Of a stretch of 41,064 nt of DNA, positions 32,300-34,604 are shown piece by piece. Position numbers and translations under genes: made by a program. Numbering within the stretch: position 1 is the first letter of the stretch; every line of letters starts with the position of its first letter. This DNA is from a bacterium. GTDB taxonomy: Bacteria > Fibrobacterota > Fibrobacteria > UBA11236. The stretch covers positions 1-41,064 of the forward strand of contig OMJM01000063.1 of NCBI GenBank assembly GCA_900299345.1, written 5' to 3'. Under the pieces are notes generated by a model. The model ran no database searches, had not been told where the DNA came from, and saw nothing but the letters and a program-made list of their open reading frames with translations.

Positions 32300-33103
32300 A
32301 TGTCATTTCGAAACCAACTGTCTACGTGGATGTTTCTGTTGCCGTTCGTCGCCTTCGCTGCATTGCCGCGCATTCCGTTTTCCGGTGCGTTTGGAGCGAC
32401 CGATGGCGCAGGCGCCGTGGTGGGATGGGAACGACAAGGATTGGGCATCAACCCGGCGGCAGGAGATCCGAATACGATGGGGGTTTCCTTTTCCGGTTAC
32501 TCGCCTTTCGGCATCGAGGATATCAAGGTGACGGAAGCTTCGGCATCTTGGGATGCTGCGCATTGGGGAGCCTCGCTGGCGTATCGTGGAATGTTTTCGT
32601 CCGAGGTTGGTTCTGCTTATGCATGGGAGGCGCAAAGCTCGGTCCGGCCGGGCTGGGGAATCGCTGCGGGCCTTTCAGGACAGTATCAGAACGATGAAGA
32701 CGTATCCACATTCGGAGGTGGAGCCGGACTTTTGTGGAGCCGGTTTTCATTTCTGACGTTGGGTGGTAAAGCAGAAATCCTTACCTCAGAACGGGGTGAT
32801 GAGTTCAAATCGGGATGTGGCGGAGATGTCGGTGGAAATTTTGCTGAAGGTTACGGATTGAGATTGAGCGCCGAGGGGTATTACAGTACGCTCGATCCTT
32901 TGGAGCTTCGCTTCGGGGCACTGCTAAGGCTTCACTCGTTGCTTTCAGTTTACAGCGGTTGGACGCCTCAAGCCCAGACGGTGGCGTTGGGAATTCGCTT
33001 CGGCATGGGGAACTGGGAAGGATTCTCAGCATTGCGACGCCATGCGGTTTTGGGAACTACTCCGGTTCAAGGGTTGCGTTGGCGACGAAAAATCGGATCC
33101 TGA
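32300..33103 (+). CDS. PorV/FadL-like outer-membrane barrel, uncertain family
   Basis: This 267-residue exported protein has a signal peptide (about 1-21, ending FAA-L) and a beta-barrel pattern throughout. The segment AVVGWERQGLGINPAAGDP recalls the N-terminal NPAA region of PorV/PorQ/FadL-type barrels. The strands GWGIAAGLSGQYQ, GGAGLLWSRFSFLTLGGKAE and LELRFGALLRLHSLLSV continue it. I chose the ATG at 32300 for its AAGGAGG site. It follows the lamin-tail-domain gene by 11 bases. In type IX secretion PorV-like barrels act with C-terminal-domain cargo, so a secretion or attachment partner role for the upstream protein is possible but unproven. Confidence 0.6.
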   Translation: MSFRNQLSTWMFLLPFVAFAALPRIPFSGAFGATDGAGAVVGWERQGLGINPAAGDPNTMGVSFSGYSPFGIEDIKVTEASASWDAAHWGASLAYRGMFSSEVGSAYAWEAQSSVRPGWGIAAGLSGQYQNDEDVSTFGGGAGLLWSRFSFLTLGGKAEILTSERGDEFKSGCGGDVGGNFAEGYGLRLSAEGYYSTLDPLELRFGALLRLHSLLSVYSGWTPQAQTVALGIRFGMGNWEGFSALRRHAVLGTTPVQGLRWRRKIGS

Positions 33104-33146
33104 TGAAATTGGTTTGAAATAAACAATTGCCTGCTCCAAAAAGATG

Positions 33147-33175
33147 TTGCGCGACTTTGCGGTCGGGCGTATCTT
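33147..33175 (+). promoter_or_regulatory. Promoter of the DUF1761 gene
   Basis: -35 TTGCGC (33147-33152), a 17-base spacer and -10 TATCTT (33170-33175). The gene start lies 52 bases downstream. Confidence 0.45.
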
Positions 33176-33227
33176 GAATCAATTCCGGTCACGGGAAGCT
33201 TCGAAACACCACCCTCAGGAGGTTTCA

Positions 33228-33665
33228 ATGGTTCAAGTCAATAATGCGGCAATTCTCATCGCGGTTGTCGTGAATTTCGTGCTTGGTTGAGTTTGGTATG
33301 GCCCCTTGTTCGGCAAGGCATGGGCCAAGGAAATGGGCATGTCCATGGATCAGAAACCCGCCGCCGGGGTGATGATCAAGGGTATGATCATCATGGTCAT
33401 CGGTTGTTATCTGACCGCGATGGTGCTGGCGCATAATGCGGCCGCGTGGAGCATGGTTCCGGGTATGAGTCTCAGCGATATATCCGCGGTGAAGTTTGGC
33501 TTCATGGGCGGTTTCTTCACGTGGCTGGGATTCTATGTGCCGCAGCATTTGAGCGGTGTGGCTTGGGAAAACAAGTCCTGGAAGCTGTTCGCCATCAACG
33601 TGGCCTACGCTTTTGTGGCCTTGCAGGTCGTGAGCCAGATTCTCTCGCACATGATGCCGAAATAA
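33228..33665 (+). pseudogene. DUF1761 membrane protein with an in-frame TGA at codon 21
   Basis: Read from the ATG at 33228 (AGGAGG lies 6 bases upstream) this frame encodes MVQVNNAAILIAVVVNFVLG, then TGA (33288-33290), then VWYGPLFGKAWAKEMG to the stop at 33665. The joined 145-codon product has the DUF1761 pattern: a first helix ending L-G-x-x-W-Y-x-P-L-F-G-K-x-W, then three more membrane segments (about 46-66, 85-103, 120-140). Family members have a small residue or tryptophan where the TGA stands, so a TGG-to-TGA change would explain it. Promoter, ribosome site and terminator are intact. Alternatives are readthrough, recoding, or a sequence error. Functions of DUF1761 are unknown. Confidence 0.75.
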
Positions 33666-33673
33666 GTCCGTTG

Positions 33674-33707
33674 AATCCCCGGTTTCGTATGGCCGAAGCC
33701 GGGGATT
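33674..33707 (+). terminator. Hairpin after the DUF1761 gene
   Basis: AATCCCCGGTTTCG (33674-33687) pairs with CGAAGCCGGGGATT (33694-33707), with one G-T pair and a 6-base loop. The following T-tract is weak (TATCTTG). It lies directly upstream of the recombinase start. Confidence 0.65.
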
Positions 33708-33713
33708 TATCTT

Positions 33714-34604
33714 GTGGATGTGACGCTCTTTTCCGCTGTTGAATCCTTTCTCGATCACCTCCGCGCAGAGCGTGCGGCGTCAGTGCATACGATTGCAGCT
33801 TATCGCCGGGATTTGCAAAAGCTTCTCGATCACCTCAAGTCGGATATTCCCGCTGCGTCCCTGGACAAGCCGCGTCTGCAGATTTTTCTGATTGATCTGG
33901 TGAAAACGGGATTGAAGCCGTCGAGCCAATCGCGTTGCGTGGCATGCCTCAAAAGTTTCGGGAAATTTCTCGCTTCGCATGGGATGGCGGAAAAAAATCC
34001 AGCGCAGGGCTTGCGGTTTCCCAAGAAGGAGCAACAGTTGTTCGCGGTCGCTGGCGAGGAGCTGCTGACGGCGTCTTTGGAACCATCATCCGATATGGAT
34101 CCGTTCATCGACCAGCGTGATCGATTGTGCATGGAACTTTGCTACGGCTCCGGTTTGCGTCTCGCGGAACTGATCGGACTCAAGTGGGGGGATTTCATCC
34201 AGGGTGGATCCATGGTGCGTGTGTTGGGCAAAGGCAACAAGACCCGTGTCGTTCCTGTGACGCGCGGTTCCCGCGATGCCCTGGATTCCTACCGCAAGGT
34301 CTGTTCGGATCGCGGTTTTTCGCCACGGGGCCCGCTGCTGTTGAATCACAAGGGTATGCCGCTCGGGCGCCGCACCGTACAACGCGCCGTCGAGGCTCGA
34401 TTACAAGCACAGGGCCGGAAAGGGAAATCTTCCCCGCACGTGCTGCGGCATTCCTTCGCCACGCACCTTCTCGATCACGGCGCGGATTTGCTGGCGGTAA
34501 AGGAGATGCTGGGCCATTCGTCATTGTCGACCACACAGAAGTACACGCACGTTTCCGTGAAACGGCTGAAGGAAATCATCTCGGTAAAACACCCGAGGGG
34601 ATGA
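33714..34604 (+). CDS. xerC: Tyrosine recombinase XerC/XerD
   Basis: This 296-residue cytosolic site-specific recombinase has the usual Xer length. The N-terminal SAM-like core-binding domain is residues 1 to about 95 (FLDHLRAERAASVHTIAAYR). The catalytic residues are R149 (GSGLRLAELIGL), K173 (LGKGNKTRVVP), H242 and R245 (PHVLRHSFATHLL), H268 (MLGHSSLSTTQ) and Y277 (KYTHV). It most likely resolves chromosome dimers at dif. The start is GTG at 33714, or GTG at 33720. XerC and XerD cannot be separated from the sequence alone. No phage or integron features flank it, so it is a housekeeping recombinase. Confidence 0.92.
   Translation: MDVTLFSAVESFLDHLRAERAASVHTIAAYRRDLQKLLDHLKSDIPAASLDKPRLQIFLIDLVKTGLKPSSQSRCVACLKSFGKFLASHGMAEKNPAQGLRFPKKEQQLFAVAGEELLTASLEPSSDMDPFIDQRDRLCMELCYGSGLRLAELIGLKWGDFIQGGSMVRVLGKGNKTRVVPVTRGSRDALDSYRKVCSDRGFSPRGPLLLNHKGMPLGRRTVQRAVEARLQAQGRKGKSSPHVLRHSFATHLLDHGADLLAVKEMLGHSSLSTTQKYTHVSVKRLKEIISVKHPRG

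Follow-up and report, generated by a model that had tools for sequence, protein, structure and literature searches.

An in-frame TGA at codon 21 interrupts an otherwise whole DUF1761 membrane-protein gene in a Fibrobacterota-like bacterium, and comparison with related sequences suggests that it is probably a recent point nonsense mutation. The gene was examined within a window (the whole stretch of DNA analysed) of 41,064 nucleotides. This reading follows from a TGG at the corresponding codon of the syntenic sister gene, from the use of TGA as a normal stop, and from the lack of detected genes for selenocysteine insertion or for a UGA-reading tRNA. By the mechanism we propose, a single-base substitution in the lineage or strain represented by the window would have turned tryptophan codon 21 into a TGA stop; ribosomes would then halt after 20 residues, leaving the protein absent or present in trace amounts via chance readthrough, and the change would be so recent that the remaining gene still appears to be under purifying selection. 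We infer both that cells do carry the mutation and that it silences the gene.

Translation of positions 33228-33665 (forward strand) yields a frame of 145 codons that ends in TAA and contains a single internal stop, the TGA at 33288-33290. The PF08570 profile (cut-off 31 bits) spans this TGA at a score of 93.8 bits, which assigns the frame to the DUF1761 family, and the segment 3' of the TGA alone scores 65.5 bits; the initial annotation, made from the letters of the DNA, had described a TGA at codon 21 of an intact DUF1761 gene in these terms. The AGGAGG ribosome-binding site that it also noted is present at 33217-33222 (forward strand), 5 bases 5' of the ATG, and AGGAGG likewise occurs upstream of the sister gene. 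The promoter and terminator that it named find weak support: a 15-bp stem-loop with a weak T tract follows the TAA at 33673-33708 (forward strand) and is a possible terminator, yet a consensus scan of 33050-33780, which missed this stem-loop, returned no promoter-like and no terminator-like sites. An internal restart at a TTG (open reading frame 33306-33665) is possible, and its product would be without the first membrane helix. The interrupted gene is flanked by a 322-codon frame that matches no Pfam family and by a gene of the phage-integrase (tyrosine recombinase) family. Farther along, an arylsulfotransferase-like gene (PF05935, 34615-36126, forward strand) stands between the integrase gene and an aminotransferase gene; in the sister these two genes are ~90 bases apart with no PF05935 gene between them, so that, by sequence comparison, either the window's genome gained the PF05935 gene by insertion or the sister lost it by deletion.

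The protein was matched in 8 of 167 genomes of the phylum, giving 11 matches, and the stop occurs only in the window's own copy, none of the 10 others having an internal stop. The closest relative (G002) belongs to the same genus, is 84% identical and is syntenic across most of the window; codon 21 of its gene is TGG, the codon that a point nonsense mutation predicts for a close relative, where the initial annotation had proposed to look. The ortholog thus keeps a whole frame with a sense codon, and the stop is confined to the window genome. In an alignment of the window gene with 23 relative rows, 2 of them gapped at this column, the 21 remaining rows carry F (10), G (4), W (3) and L, Y, S and M (1 each); cysteine, the residue sought in homologues of a selenoprotein, is found in none of these 21. 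Another genome of the same genus (G001) has two DUF1761 copies almost head to tail (L007:1052-1468 and 1498-1815), the second of which matches from about residue 33 onward only and seemingly lacks the first membrane helix.

Window genes were compared with those of the sister over 36 aligned stretches (11,156 codons), in which the sole internal stop is the TGA of the interrupted gene; the count is taken from the window-side listing, and the reverse listing, which shows many stops but is unfiltered for spurious frames on the opposite strand or out of phase, did not enter it. At the 187 tryptophan positions of the sister, the window retains tryptophan at 158 and has a stop at 1. Gene ends agree with the sister in 33 of 34 matched window genes (the interrupted gene being counted among the 34 as its post-TGA fragment), and TGA terminates 12 of these 33, of which 6 have TAA at that end in the sister; TGA thus serves as a normal stop here. 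The tRNA model found 45 tRNA genes in the window's own genome, all 45 with ordinary anticodons, including a single tRNA-Trp (CCA) and none with the UGA-reading anticodon TCA. A reassigned code in which TGA specifies tryptophan is rejected on the use of TGA as a stop, the one stop against 158 retained tryptophans and the lack of a tRNA with a TCA anticodon. A suppressor tRNA is rejected as well, since none of the 45 tRNAs has a TCA anticodon and the tRNA-Trp looks wild type: read directly, its letters show G at position 24, and it is not the Hirsh-type suppressor known from E. coli.

Near-cognate reading of UGA by tRNA-Trp inserts tryptophan. Leaky or programmed readthrough of this kind would restore the native residue and yield some full-length protein, in keeping with the identity of the lost residue, which is tryptophan, and with the constraint on the downstream frame; indeed, the whole remaining frame is expected under translation by readthrough too and to that extent counts against a nonsense mutation. 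We nevertheless consider readthrough improbable, its one sign here being the whole remaining frame, because TGA functions as a stop in this genome, the only tRNA-Trp has the CCA anticodon and the G at position 24 just described, and a TGA at codon 21 is absent from every relative found. Still more improbable is the extension of this idea in which tRNA-Trp would read UGA at a useful rate and keep the gene working at low dose, so that the stop would act as a natural brake on the dosage of a membrane protein.

The TGA is followed by a hairpin at 33299-33327 (forward strand), inside the coding sequence, and for this the idea of selenocysteine insertion directed by a downstream element has to be weighed. 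The initial annotation had placed the hairpin at these positions, 8 bases after the TGA, and the minimum-energy fold agrees, but with a lower stem of 6 bp and an upper stem of 5 bp in place of two 5-bp stems. Its energy is -13.8 kcal/mol, and 19 nt separate the TGA from a 3-nt loop. The published bacterial SECIS model (PMC13188914; rules were drawn likewise from PMC1088965) calls for a guanine at position 1 or 2 of the apical loop, for 16-37 nt between the UGA and the element, and for an energy no higher than -7.5, and some SECIS elements are said there to deviate from it. Measured against these rules, the hairpin satisfies distance and energy, which is the point in favour of selenocysteine, and violates the guanine rule: neither of the first two loop positions is G, as the initial annotation had remarked. 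The fold is also no better than chance (z of -0.37 against shuffles, 59 of 200 shuffles folding at least equally well).

How often such hairpins follow codons in general was gauged on 164 TGG codons in 28 of the 34 matched window genes, the six left out being the interrupted gene and five whose frames were judged by eye to be short, over-extended or doubtful. A hairpin of the same geometry and energy follows 57 of the 164 without the guanine rule and 27 with it; at codons taken at every fifth place (n=2123) the corresponding numbers are 749 and 306. Hairpins of this class are so common after window codons that the pairing of TGA and hairpin is uninformative here.

Nor was the machinery for selenocysteine insertion detected. 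The initial annotation had suggested a search for selA, selB and selC, and in the window's own genome, which is listed as 100% complete, the selA model had no match. Across 13 genomes it gave two 18-bit matches, both in genomes of another family, and one of 14 control genomes scored above its cut-off. Neither selB nor selD exceeded its cut-off in any of the 13 genomes: the own genome contributes 8 sub-threshold matches to the selB model, the best of them EF-Tu (746 bits, against 189 for selB), and a single selD match of 27 bits. For tRNA-Sec, the selC product, searches were above cut-off in 0 of 4, and all nine own-genome matches (best 45.9 bits, gathering score 47) fall on Ser, Leu, Arg or Trp tRNAs. 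The genes expected alongside a bacterial selenoprotein are thus represented in this genome by no selA match and by nothing above cut-off for selB, selD or tRNA-Sec. A literature search on DUF1761, at the level of titles, returned no paper about recoding. The sel gene searches, the loop rule, the hairpin control (57 of 164 TGG codons pass equal limits once the guanine rule is waived) and the lack of cysteine at the codon 21 column all stand against selenocysteine, which we regard as excluded insofar as the assembly is complete and to which we would give next to no credence. The initial annotation, which had taken a point nonsense mutation as the simplest reading and doubted a SECIS element, is borne out by the TGG of the sister, by the sel searches and by the chance-level hairpin.

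The 121 codons that follow the TGA show a dN of 0.094 and a dS of 1.035 against the sister, for an omega of 0.091, and nine other gene pairs, hand-picked from the window, range between 0.043 and 0.124. Twenty-two amino acids differ from the sister; when each is polarised by the residue commoner among 11 outgroup rows, 10 of the changes fall on the window side and 9 on the sister side, with 3 ties. The window gene also retains every one of the 27 residues that do not vary among 12 relatives. An old pseudogene is rejected for this lack of decay. As constraint persists, the stop either arose very recently or does not exist in the cells.

The latter alternative, in which the cells carry tryptophan and the assembly acquired its TGA through a sequencing error, a consensus error or the mixing of strains, is the less likely of the two, though it merits real consideration. 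A consensus error accounts for the absence of decay, the balanced changes and the low omega equally well, which must temper the case for a nonsense mutation; the assembly comprises 91 contigs, and the sister, going by its title, was assembled from a metagenome. The lack of any other stop in the 11,156 aligned codons is compatible with an isolated slip, yet it also means that no second error of such a kind is seen in the aligned genes, and the gene lies well within the 41-kb window. Whichever applies, the stop comes down to an ordinary point mutation or a slip in the assembly, and the finding by itself is of little consequence. What it offers is a caution: hairpins at SECIS-like distances are common by chance in such sequence, as among the TGG codons of the tested window genes, and where a TGA and a hairpin are paired, sel genes and cysteine homologues are needed before recoding is called. 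Should the nonsense mutation be real, its effect may be softened by a second, divergent DUF1761 gene, uninterrupted, elsewhere in the same genome (G000:C62:59541-59906).

Three known systems invite comparison. With young pseudogenes that arose by point nonsense mutation, the window gene shares the one stop, the whole remaining frame and the whole ortholog in a sister; it differs in having undergone no further decay so far, and its silence is presumed. With bacterial selenoprotein genes that carry a SECIS element it shares an in-frame TGA and, at an allowed distance behind it, a stem-loop, but unlike them it is without the loop guanine, without cysteine homologues and without detected sel genes. 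Finally, the DUF1761 family (PF08570) comprises small membrane proteins of unknown function, to whose profile the window gene matches straight through its TGA, keeping 27 of 27 positions invariant across 12 relatives; the premature TGA at codon 21 is its own, the other matches found being without internal stop.
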